Source of the DNA: Haloarcula pelagica
GTDB taxonomy: Archaea; Halobacteriota; Halobacteria; Halobacteriales; Haloarculaceae
Length of the DNA stretch: 64,000 bases
Direction of reading: 5' to 3'
NCBI RefSeq assembly: GCF_030127105.1
Contig: NZ_CP126161.1
Span: 1,054,001-1,118,000, forward strand
Positions 3,515 through 62,097 of the stretch are shown one piece after another. The stretch's first letter is position 1. Each line of letters opens with the position of its first letter. Below the pieces are notes generated by a model, which was given only the letters and a program-made list of their open reading frames with translations, had not been told where the DNA came from and did no database searches. The translations under genes were made by a program, and so were the position numbers.

Positions 3515-5179
3515 ATGCGTAGCGTCGGCGAACTGACGGCCGGCCGGTTCACCGGTCCCGGAATCGCGGTGTTCGTCTCGGGGGTGGCCAGCATGGGCCT
3601 GGAGATCCTCGCCGGCCGTATCGTCGCCCCACAGTTCGGTAGCAGTATCTACACCTGGGGGAGCATCATCGGCGTCTTCCTCGCGGCGCTGAGTCTGGGT
3701 TATCACTACGGCGGCAAGCGAGCCGCCCGGCGGGCCAGTCGGCCGCGCCTCGCCCGGCTGCTGGTCTGGACGGCCGCCTACGTCGCCGTCGTGATCTTCG
3801 CCAGCGACCTGATGCTCTCGCTCGGTGCCGCGTTCCCGCTGCCCAGTCGGTTCGCCTCGCTGCCGGCGATCACCCTGTTGTTCGGGCCGCCGACGTACCT
3901 GCTGGGGTTCATCAGCCCGTACGCGGCACAGCTCTCGGCGACCGAGGGGGTCGGCGAGGCCTCCGGCGAGGTGTACGCGATCGGCACCATCGGCAGCATC
4001 ATCGGCGCGTTCGGCACGACCTTCCTGTTGATCCCGTCGTTCAGTATCGAGGTCATCGGCTTCGTCTTCGGCGCGCTCCTGATCGTGACGGCAGCGGGGC
4101 TCGTGCTCACCTCCGCCGGGCGGGACCCGCTGTACTCGACCGTCGCCGTCGGCGTCCTCCTCGTCGCCGCGGTCTCCAGCGGCGCGATCGGCGTCTCGAC
4201 GGGCGGCCAGGTCGTCTACCAGACCCAGACGCCGTACCAGGAACTGGAGGTGACCGAACTCGGCGGCACGCGAACCCTCTATCTCGACGGTCAGCGCCAC
4301 AGCGCGATGGACATCGACGACCCCGATAGACACGTCTTCACGTACACGCGGTACTTCCACCTGCCCTACCTCCTGGCCGACGACCCCGACGACATCGACC
4401 GGGTGCTGTTCGTCGGCGGCGGCGGGTTCAGCGGCCCCAAGCGGTTCGTCTCCGAGTACGACGCGACCGTCGATGTCGTCGAGATCGACCCAGCGGTCAT
4501 CCGTGTCGCCAAGGAGTACTTCGCCGTCGAGGAGTCCGAGCGGTTGAACGTCTACAACGACGACGGTCGGCGGTTCCTCCGGGAGACGAACCACACCTAC
4601 GACCTCATCGTCCTCGACGCCTACAAGAAGGACAAGGTGCCCTTCCAGCTCACGACGGTGGAGTTCATGGCGTTGACCCGGGAGCGACTGTCCGAGGACG
4701 GCATCCTCGTGTCGAACCTCATCTCCGCGCCCGCCGGCCCCGCCTCCAAATTCTATCGCTCGGAGTACCGCACCGTGAACGAGGTCTACCCGCAGGTCTA
4801 CAGTTTCTCGACGGCGTCGGGGTCGACCGTCGTCCAGAACATCGAACTCGTCGCGACCAGGGACACGGCCCGGCTCTCGGAGGCCGAACTCCGACAGCGG
4901 AACCGCCAGCGCGACATCGGGATCGACCTCTCGGGGGCGGTCAACAGCTACCAGAACCCGCCCCCGACCGGAGACGTGCCGGTGCTCCGGGACGACCGCG
5001 CCCCGATCGACAGCCTGCTCGACCCGATGGTCGGTCAGGAGTACGTGATCGAGCAGGCCCCGCCGAATGGGAGCACAGCGACGCCATCGCTCGACGCGAG
5101 TGCTGTGTCGTCGGAACGATTCTCACCATCGGTTCGTCCGGGTACAGGAAACGGAACGGAAAGCGGTGTCGGCGTTTAG
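3515..5179 (+). CDS. Membrane-anchored spermidine-synthase-like protein
   Basis: The 554-residue protein has about seven hydrophobic helices in residues 15-230 followed by a Rossmann methyltransferase-like domain with VGGGGFSG (about 300), the acidic DVVEIDP strand end (about 320) and YDLIVLDAY. This is the architecture of fused MFS-like/spermidine-synthase proteins. The soluble half resembles SpeE aminopropyltransferases, but whether it makes polyamines is uncertain: these fused forms often lack proof of that activity. The start at 3515 follows a CAATACTTACCC stretch about 30 bases upstream that may be the promoter. It stands alone, downstream of ftsY and convergent with the amidohydrolase gene. 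Confidence 0.82.
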   Translation: MRSVGELTAGRFTGPGIAVFVSGVASMGLEILAGRIVAPQFGSSIYTWGSIIGVFLAALSLGYHYGGKRAARRASRPRLARLLVWTAAYVAVVIFASDLMLSLGAAFPLPSRFASLPAITLLFGPPTYLLGFISPYAAQLSATEGVGEASGEVYAIGTIGSIIGAFGTTFLLIPSFSIEVIGFVFGALLIVTAAGLVLTSAGRDPLYSTVAVGVLLVAAVSSGAIGVSTGGQVVYQTQTPYQELEVTELGGTRTLYLDGQRHSAMDIDDPDRHVFTYTRYFHLPYLLADDPDDIDRVLFVGGGGFSGPKRFVSEYDATVDVVEIDPAVIRVAKEYFAVEESERLNVYNDDGRRFLRETNHTYDLIVLDAYKKDKVPFQLTTVEFMALTRERLSEDGILVSNLISAPAGPASKFYRSEYRTVNEVYPQVYSFSTASGSTVVQNIELVATRDTARLSEAELRQRNRQRDIGIDLSGAVNSYQNPPPTGDVPVLRDDRAPIDSLLDPMVGQEYVIEQAPPNGSTATPSLDASAVSSERFSPSVRPGTGNGTESGVGV

Positions 5180-5216: not shown

Positions 5217-6158
5217 TCACGGATCGACGAGAAGCGAGAGCGCGTTCTCGGCTAACACCTGTTGTGCCGCCCCCTCTGGGGAGCAGCGATCGACAGCGGC
5301 GGCCAATTCGTCGATTTCGTCCCCGTCGCGGGGCTCGAAGGGGTAGTCGGTTCCGAACACCACCTGCGAGGTCGGGATCTCGTCGAAGGTCGCTCGAAGG
5401 GGCTGTTCATATCCGAAGAATCCGGACGTATCGAGGTAGATTCGCTCGTCGAGATACCGCTTGAACTCCTCGTAGGGGACTACCGAGTCCTGCCCCGGCC
5501 AGCGGCCCGCGTCTAGCTGGAGGTGGACCCGCCCGAGCATGCTGGCGATGTTCCCGCCGAGATGGTGGAAGACGAGGTTCAGGTCCTGGTAGGAGTCGAG
5601 GACGCCCTCGTGGATCACCTTACAGATGCTCTCGGAGAGGGCCGCCTCCCGTCCGAAGATCGCGTTCAGCAGGTACGTGTCGTCCAGCGCCTCGGGATGG
5701 ACCGACTCGTGGAGTTTGGGGTGGACGAGCAGTGGCGCGTCGTGGCGTTCCGCGACCTCGAAGACCGGTTCCAGTTGGCTGTCGGTCAGTTCGACGCCTT
5801 CGGTCTTCGTCTCGACCGCGCCACCGTGGTAGCCCTGGTCCAGTGCCCGCTCGAACTCCCGTGCGGCGGCCTCGCCGCCAGCGGCAACCGGGATCGCTGC
5901 CAGTCCGTAGAACCGGTCGTAGTCGGTGACGACTTCCAGCAGCGCGTCGTTTGCGCTGCGGACGCCCTCGACATCCGACGAGCCCATGTAGAAGGGCTGT
6001 GAGAGGACGACCTCGTCGACGCCCGCGGCGTCGTACAGGTCAACGAGGGTATCGGGATCGGAGAGCCGAGGGCCGAGTAACTCACCGAGTTGCCCCTCGC
6101 GTATCGGATCGGGATACACCGACTCCGGGTAGAGGTGACCGCCGAAGTCGACCGTCAT
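5217..6158 (-). CDS. Amidohydrolase-2 (ACMSD-like) family protein
   Basis: A 313-residue TIM-barrel amidohydrolase. Visible marks are VDFGGHLYPE at the N-terminus, LVHPKLH in mid-chain, LVFHHLGGN, and the terminal VFGTDYPFEP with the catalytic-type Asp. Members decarboxylate or hydrolyse small carboxylated substrates in the cytosol. In the expected D-x-H-x-H metal motif the first His is Gly (D4, G6, H8), so the metal site may be altered. Its start overlaps the end of the allantoinase-like gene upstream by 4 bases, so the two are co-transcribed and probably act in sequence on one substrate. Confidence 0.85.
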   Translation of the reverse strand: MTVDFGGHLYPESVYPDPIREGQLGELLGPRLSDPDTLVDLYDAAGVDEVVLSQPFYMGSSDVEGVRSANDALLEVVTDYDRFYGLAAIPVAAGGEAAAREFERALDQGYHGGAVETKTEGVELTDSQLEPVFEVAERHDAPLLVHPKLHESVHPEALDDTYLLNAIFGREAALSESICKVIHEGVLDSYQDLNLVFHHLGGNIASMLGRVHLQLDAGRWPGQDSVVPYEEFKRYLDERIYLDTSGFFGYEQPLRATFDEIPTSQVVFGTDYPFEPRDGDEIDELAAAVDRCSPEGAAQQVLAENALSLLVDP

Positions 6159-7513
6159 TCGGCCTCACCTCGGCGGACGAACTCCCCGTATCCGGGGTCG
6201 CCGACGACTTCACCCTCGTGGTAGACTGGCTCGCCACGGACCAGCGTCGTCTCCACGTCGCCGGTGATCGTCAGCCCGTCGAGCGGCGTCCAGCCACACT
6301 TCGCGACGACGTTCTCGTTCCGGAGTGTCTGCTCGCGGTCGAGATCGACGATGGTGAGGTCGGCGTCGGCACCGACCTGCAGGCTGCCTTTCCGCGGGTA
6401 AAGGTCGAGTATCTTCGCGGGGTTGGTAGCGAAGACCTCTGCGATTCGCTCGATCGAGACCTTACCTTCGGCGACACCGTTCAACAACAGCGGTAATACC
6501 GTCTCGACGCCCGGAATGCCGAAGGGGGCGTCGAAGACGTTGTCTTCCCCCTCGGCTTTCTGCTCCAGTGTCGAGGGTGCGTGGTCGGCGTTGATCATGT
6601 CGATCTCGCCAGCGTCTAACCGCTCCCACAGCTCTCGCCGGTCAGACTCCTCGCGAGCGGGCGGCGTGAACATCGTGTACGGCGCGTCCTCGACGATATC
6701 TTCACGAGTCAGATAGAAGTAGTGTGGACAGCTCTCGGCGTACACGTCGACCCCCTGTGACTTGTAGTGGTTCACCTGATCGATCAGTTCGGGGTGGCTC
6801 AGGTGTGCAAACCAGAACGGGACGCCGGTCTGTTTCGCGATCCGGAGCGTCGTCGAGACGGCGACCTGTTCTGCCTCCTTCGATCGCCAGTCCGGGATGA
6901 CGCTGCCGTCGGTGCGGCCCTCCTCGCGGATCCGCTCCTCGTTTGCGTTCAACATCAGTTCGTCCTCGGGGTGGACCATGCTGATCCCACCGACCCGGTC
7001 GATCTCCTCGTAGAGTCGGTGCATGTCCGCGCTCTGGAGGGCGGGGACGCCGTGGACATCGCAGGTGAAGCTCTTGTACGCGAGTGTCCCTTCCGCTTCG
7101 AGCCCCGCGATCTCGTCGACGTTGTCGGGGTGGCCACCCGCGAGCAGGCCGAAGTCGACGCGCGCTCGGTCCGAGAGGTAGTCGCGCTTGTCGGTGAGGA
7201 TGTCGGCTGTCAGGACCGTCGGATCTGTCCGGTGGTGTTCGCCCACGGTCGTGATGCCGCCGGCGGCCGCCGCGGCCGTCCCGGTCGGGAAGTCCTCCCG
7301 CTCCGTGTCGCCGGGGTCCATCATGTGGACGTGTGGATCGACGCCGCCTGGAAGGATGTGCTTGCCAGCAGCGTCGATGGTACGCTCGGCCTCCACTGTC
7401 TCTGCTGGATCGAGGACGGCCGCGATCCGGCCGTCCCGGATCGCGACTGTCGCCGGGAACTGCTCGGTAGCAGTGACTACCGTGCCGTCGGTGATTGCAG
7501 TGTCGTACACCAT
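6155..7513 (-). CDS. Cyclic amidohydrolase: allantoinase/hydantoinase/dihydroorotase family
   Basis: The 452-residue protein has the full metal centre of the urease-superfamily cyclic amidases: H61 and H63 (DPHVHMMDPG), the probable carboxylated lysine K147 (AYKSFTC), H181 (HPEDE), H237/H240 (HLSHP) and D310 (INADHAPS). The C-terminal region (KCGWTPLDG, TLVRG) is most like allantoinases. It should open a cyclic amide ring to an N-carbamoyl or ureido acid. The ATG at 7513 (MVYDTAITDG) is preferred over the longer reading from 7534 because a TTATAC box lies about 30 bases upstream of it. It is translationally coupled to the amidohydrolase-2 gene. The true substrate (allantoin, hydantoin, dihydropyrimidine or other) is not decidable here. 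Confidence 0.88.
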   Translation of the reverse strand: MVYDTAITDGTVVTATEQFPATVAIRDGRIAAVLDPAETVEAERTIDAAGKHILPGGVDPHVHMMDPGDTEREDFPTGTAAAAAGGITTVGEHHRTDPTVLTADILTDKRDYLSDRARVDFGLLAGGHPDNVDEIAGLEAEGTLAYKSFTCDVHGVPALQSADMHRLYEEIDRVGGISMVHPEDELMLNANEERIREEGRTDGSVIPDWRSKEAEQVAVSTTLRIAKQTGVPFWFAHLSHPELIDQVNHYKSQGVDVYAESCPHYFYLTREDIVEDAPYTMFTPPAREESDRRELWERLDAGEIDMINADHAPSTLEQKAEGEDNVFDAPFGIPGVETVLPLLLNGVAEGKVSIERIAEVFATNPAKILDLYPRKGSLQVGADADLTIVDLDREQTLRNENVVAKCGWTPLDGLTITGDVETTLVRGEPVYHEGEVVGDPGYGEFVRRGEAE

Positions 7514-7566
7514 GACAACACGTTTCATCCCCAAGCACGTATAACTTTTCTACATTAGCAGTCATT

Positions 7567-7589
7567 TCTAGAGAGAATACTACTCTAGA
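7567..7589. promoter_or_regulatory. TCTAGAG-N9-CTCTAGA dyad between divergent genes
   Basis: A perfect 7-base inverted repeat with a 9-base AT-rich centre lies between the allantoinase-like gene (minus) and the asparaginase-like gene (plus). Its place between two divergent promoters suggests an operator for a dimeric regulator, such as the Lrp/AsnC protein encoded at 11.7-12.2 kb. Confidence 0.4.
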
Positions 7590-7676
7590 TCTCTTTTCAC
7601 AACCCTAACCGACCCGATACCCGACTTCAATTTCGTCATCAGAAATTTTTAGGTATCTCTCACAGAAGGAGTGTAT

Positions 7677-8636
7677 ATGACAATCGTTGTCATCTCGACA
7701 GGCGGGACGATCGCTTCGACGGAGGACGCCGGTGGGGACGCGAGTCCGGAGTTGACGGGCGAAGACCTCGTCGCCAGTGTGCCCGGCTTCGACGACCAAC
7801 TGTCGCTCCGGACGGAGGACTTCTCCAACGTGCCCAGCGCACACTTCACTGTCGAACAGATGCACGAACTGAGCCAGTTGATCGCCGAGTACGACAGCGA
7901 CGACGTGGTCGACGGCATCGTCGTCACGCAGGGGACGGACGTGCTCGAAGAATCGGCGTACTTCGTCGACCGGAGCTACGACGGCGAGACACCGGTCGTG
8001 TTCACCGGGGCGATGCGAAACCCGTCGCTCGCAAGCCCTGACGGGCCGGCCAACCTGCTGACGGCCGTCCGAACGGCCCAGAGCGAGGGCGCCCGTGGCC
8101 GCGGTGCGTTGGTCGCGTTCAACGACCGAATCCACGCTGCGAAGTACGTGACCAAGACGAACTCGATGAACCTCGATACGTTCCGCTCGCCGGAGTTCGG
8201 CCCGTTGGCGACCCGCGACGAGGAGACGATCCGGTGGAGTGTCGCGACCGAGCGGACGGAGTCGGTCGACATCGACCCCGCAGCCCTCACGAACGAGGTC
8301 GTCGGTATCACCGTCACGGCCGACATGCATCCGTCACAGATACCAGCGCCCGACGAGTGTGCGGCGGTCGTGCTGGCGGCGACCGGCGCCGGTCACATCC
8401 CGCCGAAACTCATCGAACCGCTGGAAGCGCTGGCCGAGGCAGACATCCCGCTCGTGGCGACCACGCGCTGTCCGGAGGGGCGACTCGCGACGGACACGTA
8501 CGACTTCCCCGGCAGTGAGGTCACACTACAGCGGCTGGGGTGTTATTACTCGGAGCGGAACCTCCAGAAAGCGCGCGTCGAGACGATCGTCGGACTCGCC
8601 GGCGGCGGCGTCGGATCGGTGCTGTCACGGCCCTGA
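7677..8636 (+). CDS. L-asparaginase family amidohydrolase
   Basis: The product (319 residues) has both signature blocks of the asparaginase/glutaminase family: MTIVVISTGGTIAST with the nucleophilic Thr11, and VTQGTDVLEE with the second Thr-Asp pair. It hydrolyses a side-chain amide, normally Asn to Asp plus ammonia. The ATG at 7677 is chosen because GAAGGAG lies about 5 bases upstream; a GTG two codons earlier is less well placed. It is divergent from the allantoinase-like gene and convergent with the ABC importer genes. In this context it may act on an amide intermediate of the pathway rather than on asparagine itself. Confidence 0.88.
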   Translation: MTIVVISTGGTIASTEDAGGDASPELTGEDLVASVPGFDDQLSLRTEDFSNVPSAHFTVEQMHELSQLIAEYDSDDVVDGIVVTQGTDVLEESAYFVDRSYDGETPVVFTGAMRNPSLASPDGPANLLTAVRTAQSEGARGRGALVAFNDRIHAAKYVTKTNSMNLDTFRSPEFGPLATRDEETIRWSVATERTESVDIDPAALTNEVVGITVTADMHPSQIPAPDECAAVVLAATGAGHIPPKLIEPLEALAEADIPLVATTRCPEGRLATDTYDFPGSEVTLQRLGCYYSERNLQKARVETIVGLAGGGVGSVLSRP

Positions 8637-8662
8637 TCTCGGCAGTCTCGCGGCCAGCGTTC

Positions 8663-9484
8663 TCAGGTCATGTCCAGTTCCATCACGGTCTCGGTCAACG
8701 ATTCGTCGTACTCGACGAATGCATCGAGCGTGCGCGTGTCTTCGCTACGCGGGCGCGGAAGGTCGACATCGACGATGTCGTGAACCTCGCCGGGTTGGGG
8801 AGAGAGGACGATCACCCGGTCGGAGAGCCACACCGCCTCGGTGATGTGGTGCGTGACGAAGACCGTCGTCTTCTGGATCTCCTGGTGGATCCGCAACAGC
8901 TCCCGGTTCATCTTCCGACGGGTCAGTTCGTCGAGGGCCGCGAACGGTTCGTCCATCAGGAAGATCTCTGGATCGTAGACGAATCCGCGGGCGAGCGCGA
9001 CGCGCTGGCGCATCCCGCCGCTGAGTTGCTGTGGGGTGCTGTCCTCGAACCCGCCGAGACCGACCGTCTCGATTACTTCCTCGGCCTGCTCTCGAACCTC
9101 GGGATCGCTCGTGTCTTTCCCCTGGATCTCCAGGGGGAGCAGCACGTTGTCGATGACACTGCGCCACGGGAGTAACACGTCCTCTTGAAAGAAAAAGGAC
9201 ATGTCGTTGTTCTCGCGGGCCTGGGCGGCCGTCCCGTCCCCGACGTGTATCGTCCCCCGAGTCGGTTCGATGATGTCACCGAGACACTTCAGCAACGTCG
9301 TCTTCCCGCATCCGCTCGGACCGATGATCGAGACGAACTCGTTCTCGTAGATGTCGAGGTTGATATCGTGTAGCGCCTGTACCGGGTTGGCCGTGTCCCG
9401 GCCGTAGATCTTGTCGATACCGTCGATGGAGATCTTCGCCTCGCTGCTCGTCCGCTCGACGTGTGGGTTATCCGCTTCGGACAT
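8663..9484 (-). CDS. ABC importer ATPase, NitT/TauT (SsuB/TauB-like) family
   Basis: A 273-residue ATPase with Walker A GPSGCGKTT, Q-loop FFFQEDVLLPWRSV, signature LSGGMRQRVALARGF, Walker B IFLMDEPFAALDE and the switch His in FVTHHITEAVWLSDR. The phrase 'LLPW..V..NV' and the ending LSPQPGEV are typical of nitrate/sulfonate/taurine-type importers. It powers uptake through the permease encoded immediately upstream, with which its start shares one base. It lies in the run substrate-binding protein, permease, ATPase on the minus strand. Confidence 0.92.
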   Translation of the reverse strand: MSEADNPHVERTSSEAKISIDGIDKIYGRDTANPVQALHDINLDIYENEFVSIIGPSGCGKTTLLKCLGDIIEPTRGTIHVGDGTAAQARENNDMSFFFQEDVLLPWRSVIDNVLLPLEIQGKDTSDPEVREQAEEVIETVGLGGFEDSTPQQLSGGMRQRVALARGFVYDPEIFLMDEPFAALDELTRRKMNRELLRIHQEIQKTTVFVTHHITEAVWLSDRVIVLSPQPGEVHDIVDVDLPRPRSEDTRTLDAFVEYDESLTETVMELDMT

Positions 9485-10299
9485 TATCGGGTGGCACCTC
9501 CGCTACTCTGGTTCTCCCAGTCGATGAGATACGATTCGACGAACACGAGGAGTCCGAACCACACTGTCGAACACAGCCCGATGATCAACAGTGCGCGGAA
9601 CAACAATAGCGTCGAGAGCTGGTTGTTCGCGACGAGGATGAGATAGCCCAGCCCCTCGTTACCGGCCAGCCACTCGCCGACGACGGCGCCGACGAACGTC
9701 AGCGCGACGCTGATCCGCAGGGCCGAGAAGATGTAGGGGAGCGCGTTGTACAGTTTCACCTTCCGGAACACCTGCCAGCGACTGGCGTTGAGCGAGTGCA
9801 TCAGCTCCTTGGTCAGCTTGTCCGTCGAGGAAAAGCCCGCGATGCTGTTGACCAGCGACGGGAAGAACGTCGTGATCGTCGCGGCCGCGATGATCGGCCC
9901 CTGGTTGATCCCCATCCAGATGATCAGCAGTGGGGCGAACGCGATCACCGGGAGCGACCGGAGGATGACCATGTACGGGTAGATCGAGCGTTTGAGCGTG
10001 TTGAACTCGGCCATGACGGCACCCAGCGAGATGCCGATGGCGTTGCCCAACACCCAGCCCAGTATCGCCTCGATCAGAGTAACCCGGGCGTGTCCTGCCA
10101 GACTCCCCAGTTCTCCCTGGAAACTCAGGATGATCTCCGCGGGAGCCGGTAGGACGTACGTCGGGACAGCGTACACTCTGACCCCGAGCGTCCACAGCCC
10201 GAGGAAGGCAACGAGGAACGCCACCGGGTATTTGTACTTGTCGACGAGATTGCCGGCTCTGGTCCCGAAGTCCATCTGGTTTGGAGTGTCTGTCGCCAT
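9484..10299 (-). CDS. ABC importer permease, NitT/TauT family
   Basis: The 271-residue membrane protein has about six helices and the family EAA loop near the middle (SIAGFSSTDKLTKELMHSL...ASRWQVFRKVKLYNALPYIF), which contacts the ATPase. It resembles SsuC/TauC-type permeases. It starts 5 bases after the substrate-binding protein gene ends and touches the ATPase gene, so the three form one operon. Substrate unknown; the surrounding hydrolases suggest a nitrogenous compound. Confidence 0.92.
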   Translation of the reverse strand: MATDTPNQMDFGTRAGNLVDKYKYPVAFLVAFLGLWTLGVRVYAVPTYVLPAPAEIILSFQGELGSLAGHARVTLIEAILGWVLGNAIGISLGAVMAEFNTLKRSIYPYMVILRSLPVIAFAPLLIIWMGINQGPIIAAATITTFFPSLVNSIAGFSSTDKLTKELMHSLNASRWQVFRKVKLYNALPYIFSALRISVALTFVGAVVGEWLAGNEGLGYLILVANNQLSTLLLFRALLIIGLCSTVWFGLLVFVESYLIDWENQSSGGATR

Positions 10300-10304
10300 C
10301 GGTG

Positions 10305-11459
10305 TTAGTTACCCGACCATTGAAGCTCCCCGTCACTGTGGACAGCTTCGACCAGCGAGTTGTCGACGATGTCCGACTCCGCAGTCGTCGCACCCTCGCT
10401 GATCGCACCAGCCCGGACACCGAGGTTCTGCACCTCGGCGTAGTCGCCGGGGTCGTTGTAGCCGACGCCGTTTGCGTCCCAGGAGTCGTCGGGGCGGTAT
10501 TCGAGGAACTGATCGAAGTTCGACCGCTCGACTTCCATCGGATCGACGCCACCGAGGAACACGTCGGCGTCGGCATCGTTGAGCCGTCCGAGCGTCATCT
10601 CCGCGAACCGATCGCGGTTTTCGGGGTTGAGCGACTCCTCGCAGGACTTGCACCACGCCCGCGTGAACTCCCGGAACGTCTCGGGGTAGTCGTCGACGAG
10701 GTCTTGCGATGCGAGTGCGACGTTCCCGCCGGCGTCGGTGTAGTCACGAGCCTCGAAGAGGTTGAACTCCGTCCCCTGGAGCCGCAGGGAGTTGTAGTCG
10801 GAGTTCGTCGGGTACAGCGACATCACGTCGACGTTTCCTTCGGTGAGGTTCGTCACCGAGTAGCCGATGTTGGTCCGGGTGATGTCCTCCTGTGACAGGC
10901 CCTCTTCCTCCAGGACGACCGGCGTGACCCAGTTACGGTCGGCCTCGTTCTGTAGTCCGACGGTGTTGCCGGCCCAGTCCGGAACGCTTTCGATCCCGGA
11001 GTCGCCCATGGACGCGTAACTCAGCGGGGTGTTCCCGATCGTAGTGAACAGCGTCTGGACCGGGATGCCCCGGGCCAGTGCTGTCACGTACGAGAACGGG
11101 GTCGCGACGACCACGTCGATCTCACCGTTGACTAGGATCTGCAGCGGGTTCTGGACCTGTAGCGACGTGGTGATCGAGACATCCAGTCCAACATCGTCGA
11201 AGTAGCCAAACTCCACGGCCCCAGTCATCGGGGAGAACACCATGTCCGGGAAGTACGTCAGTAGCACGCTGACCTCGGTTTTCTCGAGGCCACCGTCGCC
11301 CGAACCGCTGTCAGTCGAGCCGCCGTCACTGCCGCTCCCGCCGTCGCCGCCGTCCCCGCCGCTGCCCCCGTCACCGCCGGAACAGCCAGCGAGCCCTGCG
11401 AGTGCAGCGGCTCCGGTCGCTTTGATGAATCGACGCCGGTTCGTGGGTTTTCGTGCCAT
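10305..11459 (-). CDS. ABC importer substrate-binding lipoprotein (NMT1/THI5-, SsuA-like)
   Basis: A 384-residue exported protein. The N-terminus MARKPTNRRRFIKATGAAAL has a Tat twin-arginine motif and is followed by the lipobox LAGLAGC, then a Gly/Ser/Asp-rich tether (about residues 30-60). The rest is a type II periplasmic-binding fold of the NMT1/SsuA kind, with VSVLLTYFPDMVFSPMTGAV at its start and VNGEIDVVVATP further on. It captures the substrate outside and delivers it to the permease. The ATG at 11459 puts the Tat motif at the N-terminus, so the longer reading from 11522 is rejected; that region holds a TATA-like ATTATATTTACC instead. Confidence 0.9.
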   Translation of the reverse strand: MARKPTNRRRFIKATGAAALAGLAGCSGGDGGSGGDGGDGGSGSDGGSTDSGSGDGGLEKTEVSVLLTYFPDMVFSPMTGAVEFGYFDDVGLDVSITTSLQVQNPLQILVNGEIDVVVATPFSYVTALARGIPVQTLFTTIGNTPLSYASMGDSGIESVPDWAGNTVGLQNEADRNWVTPVVLEEEGLSQEDITRTNIGYSVTNLTEGNVDVMSLYPTNSDYNSLRLQGTEFNLFEARDYTDAGGNVALASQDLVDDYPETFREFTRAWCKSCEESLNPENRDRFAEMTLGRLNDADADVFLGGVDPMEVERSNFDQFLEYRPDDSWDANGVGYNDPGDYAEVQNLGVRAGAISEGATTAESDIVDNSLVEAVHSDGELQWSGN

Positions 11460-11723
11460 GATACCCGTTGTTTTGAGAGAGGGTAACAAGTAGCTTTGGG
11501 TAAATATAATCCAAATTACCATTATTTTGTACTAAATCGCCACTATATTCTTTATACTGTAGATTTCCTCAGGTGGGAGAGACTTTTGTTAGAAATATAA
11601 TTTCCGGGCCGGATCGAGGATACTAAAACGGGGTGGGAGACGGTCAGTCGGGGCATACGAGAAAGATGGATCTGTCGTGTCGCGGTCACGACACCGGTCG
11701 ATAAGTGACCGCCCGGGGCCGGA
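11460..11723. promoter_or_regulatory. Promoter of the importer operon and 3' region of the Lrp gene
   Basis: The AT-rich half (11460-11620) contains GGTAA and TTACC arms around an ATTATATT box on the minus strand about 45 bases before the lipoprotein ATG, a likely core promoter. The other half has a hairpin with TGTCGTG/CACGACA arms (11673-11679 and 11687-11693), 31-51 bases past the Lrp stop, a possible terminator. No gene is seen. Confidence 0.4.
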
Positions 11724-12227
11724 TCAGTCTTCCACGGAGGCGACTGTCTGCTCGGCCGCGTCCTCCTCGTCGGACATCAGAACCGTACTGCCGTCGTCGA
11801 TCACCGACCGCGTCACGATCGACGACTCGTATGAGGCGATCCCCTCGACTGCGTGAAGCACGTCGTGGGTGAACGACTGAAAGTGTTCAGTGTCCTCGAA
11901 CCGCGCGTCGAAGATGATGTTGTGCGTTCCGGAGAGGACCCAGAGCTTGTAGACACAATCGGTCTCGGCGATCTCCTCGGCGATGTCGTCCGTGCGGCCA
12001 GCCTCCGTGCTGAGCCCGAACGCGACGGTCAGATAGTCGAGCTTCGCCGGGTCGGTCATCACGGTGAACTTCCGGATGATCCCCTCCTCACGCATCCGGT
12101 CCATCCGCCGTCTGACCGTGTTTCCTGTGATCCCGAGTTCCTCGCCGATGTCGTTGTACGTCGCTCTCCCTTCGTCGTGAAGGAGATCCAGGATCTGTTT
12201 GTCGACTGTGTCTAGTTCCGTTGCCAT
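11724..12227 (-). CDS. Lrp/AsnC family transcriptional regulator
   Basis: The 167-residue protein starts with the Lrp winged helix (LDTVDKQILDLLHDEGRATY, then GITGNTVRRRMDRMREEG) and continues into a RAM/AsnC-type ligand-binding beta-alpha domain (about residues 65-145) with VYKLWVLSGTHNIIFDARF. A short acidic tail follows. It probably senses an amino acid or the pathway substrate and controls the flanking operons. It sits between the cysteine-hydrolase gene and the importer genes, all on the minus strand. The nearest candidate operators are the dyads at 7567-7589 and in the 11.5 kb promoter. Confidence 0.9.
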   Translation of the reverse strand: MATELDTVDKQILDLLHDEGRATYNDIGEELGITGNTVRRRMDRMREEGIIRKFTVMTDPAKLDYLTVAFGLSTEAGRTDDIAEEIAETDCVYKLWVLSGTHNIIFDARFEDTEHFQSFTHDVLHAVEGIASYESSIVTRSVIDDGSTVLMSDEEDAAEQTVASVED

Positions 12228-12313
12228 CCACTGGATGTAGAATAGTGACTCAGTTAACCCTTTCCTTGAGCCGAAAGCTACGCCAGACCACAGCGGAAAG
12301 TCTGAAAGTTAGT

Positions 12314-12931
12314 TCAGTTCTCGAACGACTCGGTAACCTGATCGAGGGATTCGACGGTCCCGAGTGCCTGATCGATGTTCTTGAGACCGAGTTGATGGAA
12401 CTCCTCGCCATCCATGCTTCCGACACAGTCCTCAACGACGACGACTTCGTAGTCGCGGTTGGTTGCCTCGAAACAGGTGCACTGTACGCAGGTGTTCGTG
12501 TTGACGCCCGCGACGACCAGTGTCTCGATGTCGTTGACCCGGAGCACGAAAGGGAGGTCCGTTTCGAGGAACGGCGAGTACCGCTTTTTCGGCTGGAGGA
12601 ACGTATCCTCGTCCGCAGCGAGTGCCGGCATAATCTCCATCCCCTCGGTGTTCCCGTAGACGTTGTGTTCGGAGATTGCCTCCCGGGAGTCTCCGTCACT
12701 GACCTCTGTCTCGTTCCACTTCGGGTTGGACGTGATCTCGCTGGCGTCACGGTACGCGGTCGTGACGTGGATCACCGGAAAATCGTTCGCTCTGGCCGCC
12801 GTGACGAGCCGCTCCGACGCGTCGACGATCTCTTCCGCTCGGTCCGCGGGTACTGGTAGGGTCGCGATCTCCGGATCGAGATGGCCCCGGTGGAGATCGA
12901 CTGTGAGGACAGCCGTGGTCTCAGGATCCAT
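12314..12931 (-). CDS. Isochorismatase-type cysteine hydrolase (N-carbamoylsarcosine amidase/RutB-like)
   Basis: A 205-residue alpha/beta hydrolase with the Asp-Lys-Cys triad of the isochorismatase-like family: D12 (LTVDLHRGH), K115 (QPKKRYSPF) and C148 (GVNTNTCVQCTCFEA). Relatives with this triad cleave carbamoyl or amide C-N bonds (N-carbamoylsarcosine amidase, ureidoacrylate hydrolase, nicotinamidase). After a cyclic amidase opens a ring, such an enzyme would release ammonia and CO2 from the carbamoyl product. The ATG at 12931 is preferred because a TTATAAA box lies about 25-30 bases upstream (minus strand); the longer frame would run through that box. Confidence 0.85.
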   Translation of the reverse strand: MDPETTAVLTVDLHRGHLDPEIATLPVPADRAEEIVDASERLVTAARANDFPVIHVTTAYRDASEITSNPKWNETEVSDGDSREAISEHNVYGNTEGMEIMPALAADEDTFLQPKKRYSPFLETDLPFVLRVNDIETLVVAGVNTNTCVQCTCFEATNRDYEVVVVEDCVGSMDGEEFHQLGLKNIDQALGTVESLDQVTESFEN

Positions 12932-13072
12932 ACTCTGTGTAGTAAAGCCACACTGTTTATAAGTTTTCATGGTGTAAATCAACCTTTCTTAGAATATCGA
13001 GTAGTATATCTTCACAATATGATTTACAATCCCCCAAATTTTATATCGGGAGAGAGTAAGGGTGTATGTAGC
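12932..13072. promoter_or_regulatory. Divergent promoter region, two TATA boxes
   Basis: The AT-rich spacer has TTTATAAG at 12956-12963, which on the minus strand is a TATA box about 28 bases before the cysteine-hydrolase ATG, and TTTTATAT at 13039-13046, about 30 bases before the M24 gene ATG. Both genes should therefore make nearly leaderless messages from one shared control region. Confidence 0.6.
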
Positions 13073-14317
13073 ATGGTACCACAGAATGACCAACTGCGCG
13101 GCATCGGATCCCAGCTACGTGATCGACGGGGGAGCGATTACGATGACGTGCGGTTTTCCGGGTCAGAGTACGAGCGACGATACGACAATCTCCGCGAGGA
13201 GATGTTCTTTCGCGGCCTCGACTGTCTCGTCGTGTACGGAAGTTCCGCACACACGGACTCGAACCAGGCGAACATCCGCTATCTGAGCGGCTACATCGAC
13301 CAGATACAGTCCTACATCGTCTTCCCCGCCGACGGTGAGCCGACACTGTTCGCAGACCTCTACCCACACGTACCCGACGCACATCTCATGAGCCATATCG
13401 ACGACGTGCGGTGGGGGACCGAGGACAAGGGACAGGCTGTCGTCGACCGACTCGAAGAACTGGGGTACGAGGACGGCTCGATCGGCTTCGTCGGATCACC
13501 CGGCCCGGCGACGACGGAGTTGCCCGCCAACGACTACCTGACGATCACGGAGGCGCTGGACGATGCCAGTTTCCAGTTCGTCTCCGATATGCTCGACCGG
13601 ATCCGGCTCAAGAAGAGCGAAGAAGAACTGGAGGCGATCCGGGAGGGCGTCGAACTCACCGACAAGGCGATGCGCGCACTCGAAGCGGCCGCCCGGCCGG
13701 GGGTAACCGAGCGGGAACTCAAAGCCGAGATCATGTCATCGTATCTCGACGAAGGCGAGTACTTCTTCCAGCTGCTGGGGAGTACGAGCATGCACGACCC
13801 CGACATGCCCTATCCCTGGGAACACCAGTCCGACCGGACCATCGAGGAAGGCGATGTCATACTCACGGAGATCAGCGCCCGGAACGTCAAGGGATACTCC
13901 GGACAGATTCTCCGCGGGATCGCCGTCGGCGAGGAGCCGACAGACCACTATCAGGAACTGTACGATGTCGGCGAGCAGGTCTTCTACGACGTACTCGACG
14001 CCCTTGAGCCGGGGGCGACGACCGAGGACGTGCTCGCGGCCGCGACCGAACCGATAGAGAGCCGCGACTGGACCGTCCACGCGCCGATCATCCACGGGTG
14101 GGGGCTGGGCATCCAGCGTCCGCTCATCGGGACGCGCAACGAGGGTGGGTTCCCGAACCCGCCGTTCGAGTTCCAGGAGGGCCACACGGTCGTCGTCGAG
14201 CCGAACCCCGTGGCCAGCGACGAGATGAGCGGGATGTTCCTCGGCGAGTACGTTCACATCACCGAGGACGGCGCGGAGCGACTACACGAGTACCCGATGG
14301 AGTTCGTCCAGACATGA
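13073..14317 (+). CDS. M24 family (creatinase/ectoine-hydrolase/prolidase-like) protein without canonical metal ligands
   Basis: The 414-residue protein has an N-terminal creatinase-type domain (about 35-165) and a C-terminal pita-bread domain (about 175-410). The usual metallopeptidase ligands D..D are replaced: the first falls at E266 (ILTEIS) and the second at G277/Q278 (KGYSGQILRG), while H341 (IHGWGLG), E376 (VEPN) and E392 (GEYVH) remain. Loss of the two Asp is what creatinase shows, and that enzyme works without metal; ectoine hydrolases belong to the same broad group. It should cleave a non-peptide C-N bond of a small guanidino or amide substrate. ATG 13073 follows a TATA box. It overlaps the aldehyde dehydrogenase gene by four bases. 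Confidence 0.83.
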   Translation: MVPQNDQLRGIGSQLRDRRGSDYDDVRFSGSEYERRYDNLREEMFFRGLDCLVVYGSSAHTDSNQANIRYLSGYIDQIQSYIVFPADGEPTLFADLYPHVPDAHLMSHIDDVRWGTEDKGQAVVDRLEELGYEDGSIGFVGSPGPATTELPANDYLTITEALDDASFQFVSDMLDRIRLKKSEEELEAIREGVELTDKAMRALEAAARPGVTERELKAEIMSSYLDEGEYFFQLLGSTSMHDPDMPYPWEHQSDRTIEEGDVILTEISARNVKGYSGQILRGIAVGEEPTDHYQELYDVGEQVFYDVLDALEPGATTEDVLAAATEPIESRDWTVHAPIIHGWGLGIQRPLIGTRNEGGFPNPPFEFQEGHTVVVEPNPVASDEMSGMFLGEYVHITEDGAERLHEYPMEFVQT

Positions 14318-15798
14318 CCGACCACGACTACCACGACTGGGGACTGTTCGTCGACGGGGAGTTCACACAGAGCGAGAGCGGAGAGCGGTTCGATGTCGAG
14401 AATCCCGCCGACAAGACCGTCATCGGTTCGGCGCCGGAGGGGACCGCCGGCGACATCGACGAGGCCGTCCGCGTCGCTCGCGAGACCTACGAGGAGACCT
14501 GGCGCCACGTCAGCGCCCGCGAACGGGTCGACTACCTCCTCGAAGTCGCGGACCGCGTCGAAGAACGCGCCGAGGAGTTCGTGTTGCTTGAGACCCTGGA
14601 GAACGGGAAACCGCTCTCCGAATCACGGACCGACGTGGAGGAGGCCATCGACGGCTACCGCTACTACGCGGGGACGGCGGACAAGACCCACGGGGACACG
14701 ATCCCCGAGCGGGACGACCTGTTCGACTACACCGTCCGCGAACCGTACGGGGTCGTCGGTGTCATCATCCCGTGGAACTGGCCGCCGATGCACACCGCTG
14801 ACTTCACCGCGCCGGCGCTGGCCGCGGGCAACACCGTCGTGCTCAAGCCCGCGCCGGAGACGCCGCTTTCCTCCCTACTGATGGCCGAACTCTGGCAGGA
14901 CGTGCTCCCCGACGGCGTCGTCAACGTCGTCACCGGCGATGTCGCACCCGGCGCGCGCCTGACCGAACACCCGGATGTCGATAAGCTCGCCTTTACCGGT
15001 CACACCGAGACGGGGTCGAAGGTGATGAAAGCCGCCGCCGAGGACATCACCGACGTAATGCTGGAACTGGGCGGCAAAAACGCAAACATCGTCCTCCCGG
15101 ACGCCAACATCGAGAAGGCCGTCGACGGCTCCTACGACGGAATCTTCAACAATCAGGGACAGGCCTGTGCCAGCGGCTCCCGTCTCTATCTCCACGACAG
15201 TATCTACGACGAGTTCATCGAGCAGTTCGTCGCCAAGGCCGAGGGGATGGTGATCGGCCCGGGCACCGACGAGGAGACCGATCTCGCACCGCTTGCCAGC
15301 CAACAGCAGTACGACAAGGTGCGAAAGTACATCGAACTCGGTAAGGAGGAAGGTGCCTCGGTGATTCACGAAGGCAAACTGCCGGCCGACCTCCCGGATG
15401 GCTACTACGTCCCGCCGGTCGTGTTCGGCGACGTGACCCAGGACATGCGCATCGCCCGCGAGGAGATCTTCGGGCCCGTCCTCACGGTTCAGCGGTACGA
15501 GCGAGTCGAGGACGCCATCGAGATGGCGAACGACACCGAGTACGGGCTCACCGGTGCGGTCTGGTCACGGAACATGGAAGTCGCAAATCGCGTCGCCCGG
15601 CGGTTGGAGGCCGGACTCATCTTCGTCAACAACTTCGTCAACGGGTTCCTCGGTGCCCCGTTCGGCGGCTACAAACGGAGCGGGATCGGACGGAAGCTCG
15701 GCTTCGAGGAGACCCTAGACGAGTTCACGCAGGTGAAGACGATCCGGTCGCAGATCGCCCCGAGCGAGGACGGCGCCATCGACGAGTACTACGACTGA
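14314..15798 (+). CDS. NAD(P)-dependent aldehyde dehydrogenase
   Basis: A full-length (494 residue) ALDH: IPWNWPPM and KPAPETPLS for cofactor binding, FTGHTETGSK, catalytic Glu in LELGGKNANI, nucleophilic Cys in NNQGQACASGS, and EEIFGPVL near the C-terminus. It oxidises an aldehyde to the acid, with betaine-aldehyde/succinate-semialdehyde-like sequence character. Its ATG overlaps the M24 stop (ATGA), so it probably oxidises an aldehyde derived from the M24 product after deamination or oxidation by an enzyme encoded elsewhere. The start at 14314 is fixed by this overlap. Confidence 0.93.
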   Translation: MTDHDYHDWGLFVDGEFTQSESGERFDVENPADKTVIGSAPEGTAGDIDEAVRVARETYEETWRHVSARERVDYLLEVADRVEERAEEFVLLETLENGKPLSESRTDVEEAIDGYRYYAGTADKTHGDTIPERDDLFDYTVREPYGVVGVIIPWNWPPMHTADFTAPALAAGNTVVLKPAPETPLSSLLMAELWQDVLPDGVVNVVTGDVAPGARLTEHPDVDKLAFTGHTETGSKVMKAAAEDITDVMLELGGKNANIVLPDANIEKAVDGSYDGIFNNQGQACASGSRLYLHDSIYDEFIEQFVAKAEGMVIGPGTDEETDLAPLASQQQYDKVRKYIELGKEEGASVIHEGKLPADLPDGYYVPPVVFGDVTQDMRIAREEIFGPVLTVQRYERVEDAIEMANDTEYGLTGAVWSRNMEVANRVARRLEAGLIFVNNFVNGFLGAPFGGYKRSGIGRKLGFEETLDEFTQVKTIRSQIAPSEDGAIDEYYD

Positions 15799-15847
15799 CC
15801 GTCTCGATCGGCCGACACGGCCGTTCGGGATCCGCCGGTGATCGAGA

Positions 15848-17104
15848 ATGGAATCGGACCGACCACTCCCGTTTTCGCGCTGGTGGCTCGTCGTCAGCGC
15901 CGCGTTCGCGATGGGGATCGCCGGCACCTTCCAGTTCGTCTGGTCGTCGATCAGAGGGCCGCTGGGAGCGCAGGTCGGGGCGACCGAGACGACCGTCGGT
16001 ACGCTGTTTACGGTCGTCATCGCGACACAGACGCTCTCGCAGTTTCCGGCTGGGTGGGTCCGTGACCGGTACGGGCCACGGCTCCCGACGGCCGTCGGTG
16101 GTATCCTCATGGCCGGGGGGTTCGTCGGTATAGCGACGGCGTCGACGCCGATCACTGCCGGTGTGGGGGCAGTCGCCGGTGGTGCCGGCTCCGGAGCCAT
16201 CTACACGATCGCGGTCAACACGCCTGTCAAGTGGTTCGACGAGCGACGCGGGCTCGCGACCGGCGTCCTGACGATGTCGTACGCAGTTCTGAGCTTCGCA
16301 CTGATCCCGGTGGTGAGACGTGACCTGCTGGGCAGTCTCGGGCGCTCGCTACTCGCCTTCGCCGTGTTGGCCGCTGTCGCGTGTCTCGTTGCGGCGCTCG
16401 TCCTCCGTGATCCCGACACGGAGACGGTGCCGACAGACGGGGCGGCCGCGGACGGCCGTCAGGCAGCCGAAACTGGGCGACCGGCCGAACCGTACAACTG
16501 GCGCCAGGCGCTTACGACGTGGCAGTTCTGGGTCCTCTACGGCGTCTTCGTCGTCGTGAACGGCGTCGGACTCATGCTCATCGGGAAGCTCATCGCCTTC
16601 GCGACGGCACTGCAGTTGGCCACAGGAACGGCGACGCTGGCCGCCTCGGTCATCGCTGTCGCCGACGGGGCCGGCGGGCTGATCGTTGGCGGGCTCTCCG
16701 ACCGATTCGGCCCGCTCCGGACCGCCGGCACTTCGCTGCTCTGTAGCGCCGCGGGGATCGGCGGCGCCGTCCTGGCGGGGAACCTCGGTATCGGGCTCGC
16801 CTTCGTCGCCTGTATCCTCGTCGCGGGGTTCTTCCGGAGCCCGGTCTTTGCGATCTTTCCGACAGTCGTCGGGGAGTACTACGGGCGGACGTACTCCTCG
16901 GAGAACTACGCCGTCCTCTACACCGCGAAGCTGTGGGGAAGTGTGTTCGCCGGGACGGGAGCGAGCGTCCTCGTGTCGACCGTCGGGTGGTCACGGTCGT
17001 TCCTGCTGGGCGCGGGGGTGCTGGCACTCGGTGGTGCGGTGCTGTTCACGGTTCGGCCGGTCAAGCGGCCCACGCGTCCGGACGGCGGGAGCCAGAACCG
17101 GTGA
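15848..17104 (+). CDS. MFS transporter, oxalate:formate antiporter (OFA)-like
   Basis: The 418-residue protein has about 12 helices. It begins WWLVVSAAFAMGIAGTFQF and has GWVRDRYGPRLP in the loop between helices 2 and 3, and the repeated GGLSDRFGPLRTAG between helices 8 and 9, both MFS signatures. KWFDERRGLATGV is typical of OFA/monocarboxylate carriers. It lies 49 bases after the aldehyde dehydrogenase and is likely to move a carboxylate substrate or end product of this cluster across the membrane. Confidence 0.87.
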   Translation: MESDRPLPFSRWWLVVSAAFAMGIAGTFQFVWSSIRGPLGAQVGATETTVGTLFTVVIATQTLSQFPAGWVRDRYGPRLPTAVGGILMAGGFVGIATASTPITAGVGAVAGGAGSGAIYTIAVNTPVKWFDERRGLATGVLTMSYAVLSFALIPVVRRDLLGSLGRSLLAFAVLAAVACLVAALVLRDPDTETVPTDGAAADGRQAAETGRPAEPYNWRQALTTWQFWVLYGVFVVVNGVGLMLIGKLIAFATALQLATGTATLAASVIAVADGAGGLIVGGLSDRFGPLRTAGTSLLCSAAGIGGAVLAGNLGIGLAFVACILVAGFFRSPVFAIFPTVVGEYYGRTYSSENYAVLYTAKLWGSVFAGTGASVLVSTVGWSRSFLLGAGVLALGGAVLFTVRPVKRPTRPDGGSQNR

Positions 17105-17241: not shown

Positions 17242-17844
17242 GTGCTCTCGGATAGCGACCGATCCAAGCTCGATTCGGGCCCGGACGACGCCTTCTACGA
17301 CAGCCCGCGGTTCGTGACCCACGCCGACGACGCCTTCCTGGCCCGCCTCACCGAGGTGTACGCCTCGGTCCTCTCGCCCGGCGACCGCGTCTTCGACGCG
17401 ATGGGGAGCTGGGTGTCACACCTCCCCGAGATCCGGTTCGACCGCGTCGTCGGCCACGGACTCAACGAGGCCGAACTCGCCGCGAACGACGCCCTCGACG
17501 AGTGGTTCGTCCAGGACCTCAACGAAGACCAGACGCTCCCCCTGGCCGACGACGCGTTCGACGCCGTCCTCTGTGCGCTGTCGGTCCAGTACCTCCAGTA
17601 CCCCACAGCGGTGTTCGCGGAGTTCGGTCGTGTCCTCGCGCCGGGCGGTGTCCTGGTGGTGAGTTTCACCAATCGGATGTTCCCGACGAAGGCGATTCGG
17701 GCCTGGCGAACTGCCAGCATGGCCGAGCGCCAGGCACTCGTCGAATCGTACTGCGAGGCGGGCGGACTGACGGTCGTGGATGTCGTCAGCGAGACGCCGG
17801 GCCGGGACCCACTCGTTGCCGTCGTCGCCCGGAAGGAAAGATAA
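17242..17844 (+). CDS. Class I SAM-dependent methyltransferase
   Basis: The protein (about 200 residues) contains VFDAMGSWVSHLPE in place of the usual motif I glycine loop, LADDAFDAVLCALSVQYLQ (the acidic motif II and post-II region) and LAPGGVLVVSFTNRMF (motif III). It therefore folds as a class I methyltransferase, though the motif I loop is unusually poor in Gly and SAM binding may be modified. The GTG at 17242, with GGAG just before it, gives the family length; the frame is open much further upstream but inside the MFS gene region. Substrate unknown. Confidence 0.72.
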   Translation: MLSDSDRSKLDSGPDDAFYDSPRFVTHADDAFLARLTEVYASVLSPGDRVFDAMGSWVSHLPEIRFDRVVGHGLNEAELAANDALDEWFVQDLNEDQTLPLADDAFDAVLCALSVQYLQYPTAVFAEFGRVLAPGGVLVVSFTNRMFPTKAIRAWRTASMAERQALVESYCEAGGLTVVDVVSETPGRDPLVAVVARKER

Positions 17845-51893: not shown

Positions 51894-52964
51894 ATGCACG
51901 TTGGAATTAACGGACGGGCGTTCGTGACCGACGAGCCGGGCGGCGCAGTGCAGACCGCGAAGTGTCTCACGCAGGAACTTATTCGGCGTCCTGACGTTGA
52001 GACGACCCTGTTCGGCCACCAGGCGCTCTCGGACGAGTTCGGCACGGATGTCGAAAGCAAGGGGTATCTCTCGCGGTCACAGTTCTTCGGAGTCGGGTGG
52101 GAGCGAACGGTACTCCCGCTTCTCGCCCGCCGACACGACATCGACATTCTGTTCTGTCCCAATGCCAACGCACCGCTTCACAGGACCCCCTACCCGGTTG
52201 TCACATATATCCACGACGTTGGTGCGATGCACGACTGGTCGTCGTCGGTACATGGTCTGTACCGAAAAACGACTGTTCCACGCGTCGCCGATGTGTCAGA
52301 TCGTATCGTGACGGTCTCGGCGTTTTCGCGGGACGAGATCGTAGAGCAGTTGGGCGTTGATCCGGCTAGAGTCAATGTCGTCCACAATGGTATCAACAAG
52401 CGCTTTCTCAGCGATAAGCCCGGCGAACCTATTGAGGTTCCGGATCAGTTCGTACTCTACGTCGGAGCGTTGAACCCCCGGAAGAACGTCTCCGGACTCG
52501 TAGAAGCGTATCGGCGTGTTAGCGACGACTTTAATCACGAGCTCGTCCTGACAGGCCCACGGAACAAGGAACTGTTCGACTCGTTTGAAATCAGAGAGAC
52601 AGACGACGTACATATGACGGGGTTCGTTTCACAAGAAGAACTGAAGTTTCTCTACGATGAGGCTGACGTGTTCGCATACCCCTCGTTCTACGAGGGATTT
52701 GGGCTGCCGCCGCTGGAGGCGGCGGCGTGTAAGACACCCGTGGTTACGTCCCGAACCGGCGCAATTCCAGATGTTCTCGGCAACGCGGCACGGTACGTTG
52801 ATCCGAAAGACAGGGCAGACATTGGGTCCGCGCTTCTATGGGCTACGAGGAACCCGGCGGCAATGAAGAATACCACGGCAGCACGTCAGCGCGTTCAATC
52901 ACTAACCTGGAAACACGCCGCTAAAGACCTGTATTCGGTTCTCAAAGAGGAGTCGCGGCAATAA
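51894..52964 (+). CDS. GT4 family glycosyltransferase
   Basis: The 356-residue enzyme has an N-terminal acceptor domain (HVGINGRAFVTDEPGGAVQT) with IVTVSAFSRDEIVEQLGV before the hinge, and a donor domain: LYVGALNPRKNVSGLVEAYR, MTGFVSQEELKFLYDEADVF and the E-x7-E motif in SFYEGFGLPPLEAAAC. It is of the mannosyl/rhamnosyltransferase-like GT4 group. It follows the sulfatase-like gene by 50 bases. Confidence 0.9.
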   Translation: MHVGINGRAFVTDEPGGAVQTAKCLTQELIRRPDVETTLFGHQALSDEFGTDVESKGYLSRSQFFGVGWERTVLPLLARRHDIDILFCPNANAPLHRTPYPVVTYIHDVGAMHDWSSSVHGLYRKTTVPRVADVSDRIVTVSAFSRDEIVEQLGVDPARVNVVHNGINKRFLSDKPGEPIEVPDQFVLYVGALNPRKNVSGLVEAYRRVSDDFNHELVLTGPRNKELFDSFEIRETDDVHMTGFVSQEELKFLYDEADVFAYPSFYEGFGLPPLEAAACKTPVVTSRTGAIPDVLGNAARYVDPKDRADIGSALLWATRNPAAMKNTTAARQRVQSLTWKHAAKDLYSVLKEESRQ

Positions 52965-53026
52965 ACACCAACGCATATCAGTATATCTTATTTCCGTGCT
53001 ACAGTGTAAATTATCTGTATAGAACG

Positions 53027-54355: not shown

Positions 54356-54610
54356 CAACTCTCTTAACAAAAAAGACTCGAAACGAAAGTTACGGACCGA
54401 ACATAACAATCGTCGGATCCAAACGATCCCTGGCAAATGTGCATCAGCCGCATCGGATGAAGAACGAGGAGACGTGGTTTTTACCACACGAAGCCAAGCC
54501 AACGACTGTTACACTGGCTCGCTCATGTAGGAATTTGCACTGACCTCCGGTGCCACCGGCAGACCGTGACACAGGCTTGAAATCCCTATGCCCCCCGTTA
54601 GTTTCAGAAA

Positions 54611-55921: not shown

Positions 55922-56121
55922 ATTATTTCACCGAGTGGAAGAAGATAATGATATTTACGGACTTTTTCATCACTCTTGATACAATGATACGACGGTAATT
56001 ATGCTCACCGAATGCAGTGGACTATTATAAGCCTACTGCTTGTGTGTCTGTGTTGTTGGCTCTGAACCAGGTCGATACAAACATACTTTTATTCACCGGT
56101 GGCTCATTCGCATACGATTGA
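55922..56121. promoter_or_regulatory. AT-rich divergent promoter region
   Basis: Two sulfatase-like genes diverge here. ACTTTTATT at 56085-56093 lies about 30 bases before ATG 56122 and is a good TATA candidate for the plus-strand operon. The minus-strand start has an equally AT-rich approach. Confidence 0.45.
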
Positions 56122-58529: not shown

Positions 58530-58635
58530 ATGGATTGGCGATATGGGTGGTTTGTAAACATCTTACGTTGTAAAGAGAACCCGACCGCCGGACAGAAAGA
58601 TTCAATTGGACATTGGTCTTGTTAACTTAGCAGAG

Positions 58636-60785: not shown

Positions 60786-60832
60786 CCGATGGTTAAATAT
60801 CAGATACTATCGCACAATCGAAATGCCAGTCT

Positions 60833-62029: not shown

Positions 62030-62097
62030 TCCCCCCTAACTCCAAACAAATAGCTCTCTGCTAAGTTTGTCGGAAAGATCCAGTATCTGATGGAAAT

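Follow-up and report, generated by a model that had tools for sequence, protein, structure and literature searches.

Does the run of importer, hydrolase and regulator genes at positions 5217–17104 of the 64 kb window analysed here (G000:C1:1054001-1118000, from a 4.46 Mb haloarchaeal genome) encode one catabolic pathway and, if so, what kind of compound does it break down? A preliminary description of this DNA had proposed a complete uptake-and-cleavage route for one nitrogenous compound. To our knowledge, little has been described of haloarchaeal nitrogen catabolism apart from that of amino acids, urea and nitrate, and most assignments rest on automated family names. We found that ten of the genes form a conserved block and that synteny and co-inheritance lend good support to a single pathway of uptake and hydrolysis. 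The block is probably a catabolic cluster that moves by lateral transfer and serves one N-heterocyclic compound, whose ring is most likely of the cyclic imide, ureide or lactam type. The substrate class, each reaction and the order of the reactions are what we infer.

Eleven genes fill the interval between a spermidine-synthase-like gene (3515–5179) and a methyltransferase gene (near 17242–17844). The ten-gene block spans 5217–15798, in the order AMH2, CYC, ASN, ATPase, permease, binding protein, Lrp, ISO, M24 and ALDH, and an MFS gene lies beyond it. Genes and candidate regulatory sites are as follows:

5217..6158, minus strand: AMH2, a member of the Amidohydro_2 family (decarboxylase/ACMSD-like subgroup; PF04909, 82.9 bits) with DFGxH instead of the HxH motif
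6155..7513, minus strand: CYC, a cyclic amidohydrolase with a full binuclear metal site (PF01979; 1gkr, 290 bits)
7545..7554, minus strand: TGTAGAAAAG, a candidate operator in the CYC/ASN divergent promoter, conserved in the corresponding position of L012 and L013
7677..8636, plus strand: ASN, a type II asparaginase-like amidase transcribed divergently from CYC (PF00710, 193 bits)
8663..9484, minus strand: ATPase of an ABC importer (PF00005)
9484..10299, minus strand: permease of the ABC importer (PF00528, 87 bits)
10305..11459, minus strand: substrate-binding lipoprotein, NMT1/THI5-like, with an RRRFIK...LAGC signal (PF09084, 105 bits)
11724..12227, minus strand: Lrp/AsnC regulator (PF13412 and PF01037)
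12236..12245, plus strand: TGTAGAATAG, which differs from the candidate operator by one mismatch and lies immediately upstream of the Lrp gene
12314..12931, minus strand: ISO, an isochorismatase-type cysteine hydrolase (PF00857, 124.7 vs 27 bits)
12938..12947, plus strand: TGTAGTAAAG, a candidate operator in the ISO/M24 divergent promoter
13073..14317, plus strand: M24, a creatinase/prolidase-fold hydrolase lacking the metal site (PF00557 and PF01321)
14314..15798, plus strand: ALDH, an aldehyde dehydrogenase (PF00171, 560 bits)
15848..17104, plus strand: MFS carrier, probably peripheral (PF07690)

Pfam searches backed the family membership of every cluster gene, including all the enzyme, importer and regulator families that the preliminary description had named. 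The overlapping starts and divergent promoters that it had reported are also there: CYC and AMH2 overlap by 4 bp, permease and ATPase by 1 bp, and M24 and ALDH by 4 bp, while the divergent pairs CYC/ASN and ISO/M24 are separated by gaps of 163 bp and 141 bp. We place the M24 start near 13073 rather than at the open reading frame start, 12881. On the whole, the preliminary description proved accurate in almost every point.

We searched other haloarchaeal genomes for the same neighbourhood and found the identical ten-gene order, with identical strands, in three other clusters. One lies in the metagenome-assembled genome QH_7_66_36 (L012, 69–89% identity), one on the Haladaptatus halobius plasmid unnamed4 (L013/L022, 56–82% identity) and one in G361 (L014). 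In L013 and L014 a short-chain dehydrogenase/reductase (SDR) gene adjoins AMH2. Because the order recurs in three other genomes, the association of the genes is not due to chance. Moreover, each of the ten genes (10/10) returned the same four-taxon grouping, and the block was therefore inherited together. The genes are rare. At the level of the family, M24 was found in 2 of 146 genomes, and at that of the class in 7 of 292 (a class count that includes distant homologues of 33–44% identity), CYC in 5 of 391 genomes and ISO in 3 of 292, with ISO orthologues found solely within the ten-gene block. Thus the scattering of genes among relatives that would have spoken against a unit was not seen; order in four genomes, congruent relationships, joint absence elsewhere and a motif in both divergent promoters all indicate that the genes behave as a unit. 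The MFS carrier, which had been counted in the set, is indeed present but lies outside the conserved block, is shared with L012 only (1/3 of the related clusters) and is probably peripheral to it.

The same comparisons bear on how the block travels. The flanking genes have counterparts of 86–92% identity in the closest relative, G012, where they enclose 21.5 kb of unrelated DNA (G012:C1:2414700-2437000; L082, L083). Because unrelated DNA occupies the same site there, the interval bounded by the spermidine-synthase-like gene and the methyltransferase gene is a hotspot of integration. The G+C content of the block is 0.58–0.635, versus 0.66 in the left flank. Since the site is variable, the genes are rare and their G+C is lower than that of the left flank, the ten-gene block is a mobile accessory unit. 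A search of plasmids returned no exact bacterial counterpart of the cluster. Elsewhere in the window, positions 52000–64000 have a G+C of 0.47–0.53 (versus 0.66 at the left end), which suggests a second acquired region.

The motif was examined across the clusters. In the 64 kb window TGTAGNAAA has two exact matches, one in the CYC/ASN promoter (7546–7554) and one in the ISO/M24 promoter (12938–12946). Across the 21 kb L012 and L013 loci, exact copies occur only in the same two divergent promoters (4208 and 9867 in L012; 4465 and 9851 in L013); none was found in L014. Allowing one mismatch, TGTAGAAAAG has a match in 6 of the 16 intergenic regions that the four clusters contain. The number expected from shuffling is 0.24, and a count of 6 never arose in 500 shuffles, although these figures overstate the significance of a motif that was picked after the promoters had been viewed. 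We infer that Lrp is the binder and regulates the cluster through the TGTAGNAAA-like candidate site. An inverted repeat in the ISO/M24 gap, TGTAAATCA...TGATTTACA (12973, 13020), was dropped as it is not conserved in the relatives.

What, then, could the enzymes do? We judged pathway membership by curated NCBIfam equivalog cut-offs and by the presence of partner genes. The six metal ligands of CYC (H61, H63, K147, H181, H237 and D310) are invariant in 7 orthologues, which places it in the cyclic amidohydrolase superfamily with the full metal site that had been claimed for it. Its nearest solved relative in a PDB search is the L-hydantoinase 1gkr (290 bits). Like the enzymes of hydantoin, allantoin and dihydropyrimidine degradation, CYC has a complete metal site, and it scores about 290–330 bits to their models. 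It nevertheless falls under their equivalog cut-offs: those of both AllB allantoinase models (328.0 vs 357.9; 325.6 vs 631) and that of the dihydropyrimidinase/D-hydantoinase model TIGR02033 (289.3 vs 393.3). The block also lacks an M20 carbamoylase or allantoate hydrolase, and no cluster enzyme reached the curated cut-offs for the ergothioneine-pathway hydantoinase or Xaa-Pro dipeptidase.

ISO carries the D-K-C triad that had been noted, as D12, K115 and C148, together with the Pfam domain of its family. It is related to biuret hydrolase, RutB and CSHase and scores far under the curated cut-offs (biuret hydrolase, 68.7 vs 370; RutB, 60.5 vs 378). In ASN the catalytic set of type II asparaginases (T11, T87-D88 and K160) is invariant in 14 of 14 aligned sequences, whereas the flexible-loop Tyr is absent: none occurs within residues 12–29 in any of the 14. 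The protein scores 185 bits against a TIGR00520 cut-off of 314.3. Thus the earlier label of asparaginase-like amidase holds for the catalytic residues but not for the loop, and ASN does not score as a type II L-asparaginase.

The importer is of the NitT/TauT type, with an NMT1-type binding protein, a single permease and a single ATPase in consecutive genes (PF09084, PF00528 and PF00005). The nearest NCBIfam models are the SaoA, nitrate and taurine ATPases for the ATPase and SaoP, SsuC and TauC for the permease, all under their cut-offs. The best PDB match of the binding protein is 3ix1 (ThiY), at 56 bits.

These relationships could also be explained by reductive pyrimidine or hydantoin catabolism. 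CYC would then be the dihydropyrimidinase or hydantoinase, ISO the N-carbamoyl hydrolase and AMH2 a pyrimidine-carboxylate decarboxylase; ALDH would act on the semialdehyde, and the importer would serve a pyrimidine. The L-hydantoinase kinship of CYC, the relatives of ISO, the ThiY/THI5 affinity of the binding protein and a match of AMH2 to uracil-5-carboxylate decarboxylase, among others, are in line with this, as is a cytosine/purine-type permease a few kb past the block in Haladaptatus. However, CYC and ISO remain under the dihydropyrimidinase and RutB cut-offs, the block has no dihydropyrimidine dehydrogenase, and ASN and M24 are left unexplained. We consider this explanation quite unlikely.

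The metal sites of two enzymes are altered. At the five positions where M24 metallopeptidases carry the ligands D, D, H, E and E, the window protein has E266, Q278, H341, E376 and G391. In all 10 of the 10 family members, Glu266, Gln278 and Gly391 replace the first Asp, the second Asp and the last Glu, and His341 is kept; position 376 is E in the window protein and Q in 6 of the 10. Because the metal ligands are replaced, we read M24 as a pita-bread protein of the putatively metal-free kind, to which creatinase and ectoine hydrolase also belong. Those two enzymes work without a metal. The family profile matches creatinase 7yto over its full length (80.6 bits), under the match to PepQ (96.5). 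Hence the term creatinase-like, used in the preliminary description, is apt for family and fold, whereas the metal ligands are lost and the start lies near 13073.

In AMH2, DFGxH replaces DxHxH, so that the first His of HxH is gone, in all aligned members covering that region. The second amidohydrolase that had been described is therefore right in family (PF04909) but lacks the first metal motif, HxH or ExH; His146, His198/199 and Asp271 are still present. Its solved relatives in the PDB are the gamma-resorcylate, 5-carboxyvanillate and ACMS decarboxylases, and uracil-5-carboxylate decarboxylase is also among the matches. Because canonical metal ligands are missing, the reactions of M24 and AMH2 cannot be read from the family name. 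AlphaFold models built on three-sequence alignments had mean pLDDT values of 34 for M24 and 50 for AMH2, too low to be of use. Distant M24 relatives (34–44% identity) occur at four other loci (L016, L018, L019 and L023), near FrsA-like alpha/beta hydrolases or alcohol dehydrogenases, and NMT1-type importers accompany some of them. Our reading is that these relatives belong to a wider family of putative C-N hydrolases.

M24 also raises the question of a derived ectoine- or creatine-type route, in which it would act as a metal-free amidine or guanidine hydrolase, ALDH as DoeC and Lrp as DoeX. DoeX is an Lrp-family regulator. Ectoine and hydroxyectoine degradation (DoeA/EutD, DoeC, DoeX) indeed shares with the block an M24-family hydrolase, an aldehyde dehydrogenase and an Lrp/AsnC regulator, and M24 combines a best NCBIfam match to ectoine_DoeA_2 with the full-length creatinase profile match. 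Yet it lies far under the DoeA/EutD cut-offs (70.6 vs 575; 40.2 vs 613), and the block adds CYC, ASN, ISO and AMH2. Neither the deacetylase (DoeB) nor the aminotransferase (DoeD) family was found by Pfam among the genes at 5217–17104, and ectoine consumers have been reported in Proteobacteria only (PMC5924519). Such a route is very unlikely. Taking curated cut-offs and missing partners together, we rejected membership in the ectoine, creatinine, allantoin and reductive pyrimidine pathways.

A catabolic cluster for a nitrogen heterocycle is an already known kind of system, and one precedent concerns the order of steps. In the nicotinate route of A. nidulans a cyclic imide is opened by HxnM, after which HxnN hydrolyses the primary amide (PMC9304392). 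Imide opening followed by amide hydrolysis is what we propose for CYC and then ASN; by this analogy, the two enzymes may act on an imide-like ring, first opening it and then releasing the nitrogen of the amide. The enzymes themselves differ: HxnM is PuuE-related and HxnN is an FAAH-type amidase, both unrelated to CYC and ASN, and the block lacks hydroxylases while adding M24, ISO, AMH2 and a NitT/TauT-type importer. Nor does the block qualify as a nicotinate or pyridine pathway, as no molybdenum hydroxylase or flavin monooxygenase is among the cluster genes (molybdenum hydroxylases elsewhere in the genome were not searched for). Thus the claim that no known pathway fits agrees with our results, since the defining features of the known pathways tested were not found. 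We found no description of the cluster in the open-access literature.

CYC and ASN also occur together outside the block. Every CYC that we found has ASN as its divergent neighbour, which holds for the four clusters as well as for G307, G273 and the Haloarcula JP-L23 plasmid. The last three clusters also hold an AMH2 homologue, and their CYC/ASN pair shows 75–77% and 61–65% identity. There the pair lies amid genes for a CODH-like molybdenum hydroxylase, a flavin monooxygenase, SDRs, HisD-like and cyclase-family proteins, in a set that varies by locus; the flavin monooxygenase is nearest to 2,6-dihydroxypyridine 3-hydroxylase (137 bits, next 63). Unlike the block, these clusters have an IclR regulator and transporters of other types, together with oxygenases, SDRs and HisD-like and MMSDH-like genes, and they lack ISO and the window-type Lrp.

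Haloarchaea carry a second, larger cluster type, seen in G307 (L053, L017 and L054), G273 (L055 and L056), the JP-L23 plasmid (L021), G156 (L084) and G147 (L086). Its kit comprises a CODH-like molybdenum hydroxylase, a 2,6-dihydroxypyridine-hydroxylase-like flavoprotein, a VOC protein, SDRs, and HisD-like, cyclase-family and MMSDH-like proteins. It looks like an undescribed heteroaromatic degradation pathway.

Several of these comparisons weigh against a single ring-opening pathway in the block. In G156 and G147 the oxygenase cluster comes without CYC and ASN, and the oxygenase pathway therefore does not require the pair. The flavoprotein was not found in the block hosts G000, G085 and G361 in a search at E 1e-60. 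For these two reasons we dropped, as a firm claim, a reading based on the CYC/ASN-bearing clusters of the second type, in which the ring opened by CYC is that of a trihydroxypyridine tautomer. On the Haloarcula GH36 plasmid, relatives of the importer, M24, ALDH and AMH2 occur without CYC, ASN, ISO or Lrp, from which it follows that the block was built of at least two modules. Finally, ASN homologues also stand alone in other contexts in other haloarchaea. ASN relatives of 57–71% identity lie on Natrinema and Haloprofundus plasmids (L088, 12001–12960; L089, 12001–12969; L090, 8001–8972), next to genes for pyridoxal phosphate (PLP) enzymes, alanine racemase, or a PurB-like lyase and an aminotransferase.

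Such modularity would be expected of a nitrogen-scavenging island, that is, independent amidases and hydrolases with their own substrates, held together by one Lrp-type regulator in nitrogen shortage. GH36, with its importer, M24, ALDH and AMH2 only, JP-L23, which keeps CYC, ASN and AMH2, and the solitary ASN genes all fit that picture. It is difficult to reconcile, however, with the strict ten-gene order in four genomes, the confinement of ISO orthologues to the block, the overlapping gene pairs and the single importer, and we regard a scavenging island as unlikely.

Taken together, these results lead us to favour one pathway for an N-heterocyclic compound, which could run as follows. The NMT1-type lipoprotein and its ABC partners would import the compound, and CYC would open a ring amide, yielding an open-chain acid that ends in a carboxamide or ureido group. 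Ammonia would be released by ASN and ISO from the carboxamide and the carbamoyl or amide group. The putatively metal-free M24 may cut another C-N bond, just as creatinase and ectoine hydrolase need no metal to do so, and AMH2 might trim a carboxyl group or add water. ALDH would oxidise the semialdehyde so formed, and the acid produced would enter central metabolism, with Lrp controlling the cluster via the TGTAGNAAA-like site in the divergent promoters.

More tentatively, it is possible that the block represents an undescribed archaeal N-heterocycle pathway. It would combine a new cyclic amide/imide hydrolase clade, a dedicated asparaginase-fold half-amidase and a new metal-free M24 family (E266/Q278/H341). 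The ten genes would pass as a whole, together with a regulon motif of their own, from one haloarchaeal genus to another, carried by plasmids as well as by chromosomes. The predicted metal-free M24 family is the least expected component of the cluster, and the block brings to light both this subfamily and one of AMH2 proteins whose active sites are altered. CYC and ASN form a recurring module common to the block and to other uncharacterised haloarchaeal ring-degradation clusters. The block itself is a small, complete gene set with its own importer and regulator, and a single ligand screen could reveal its substrate.

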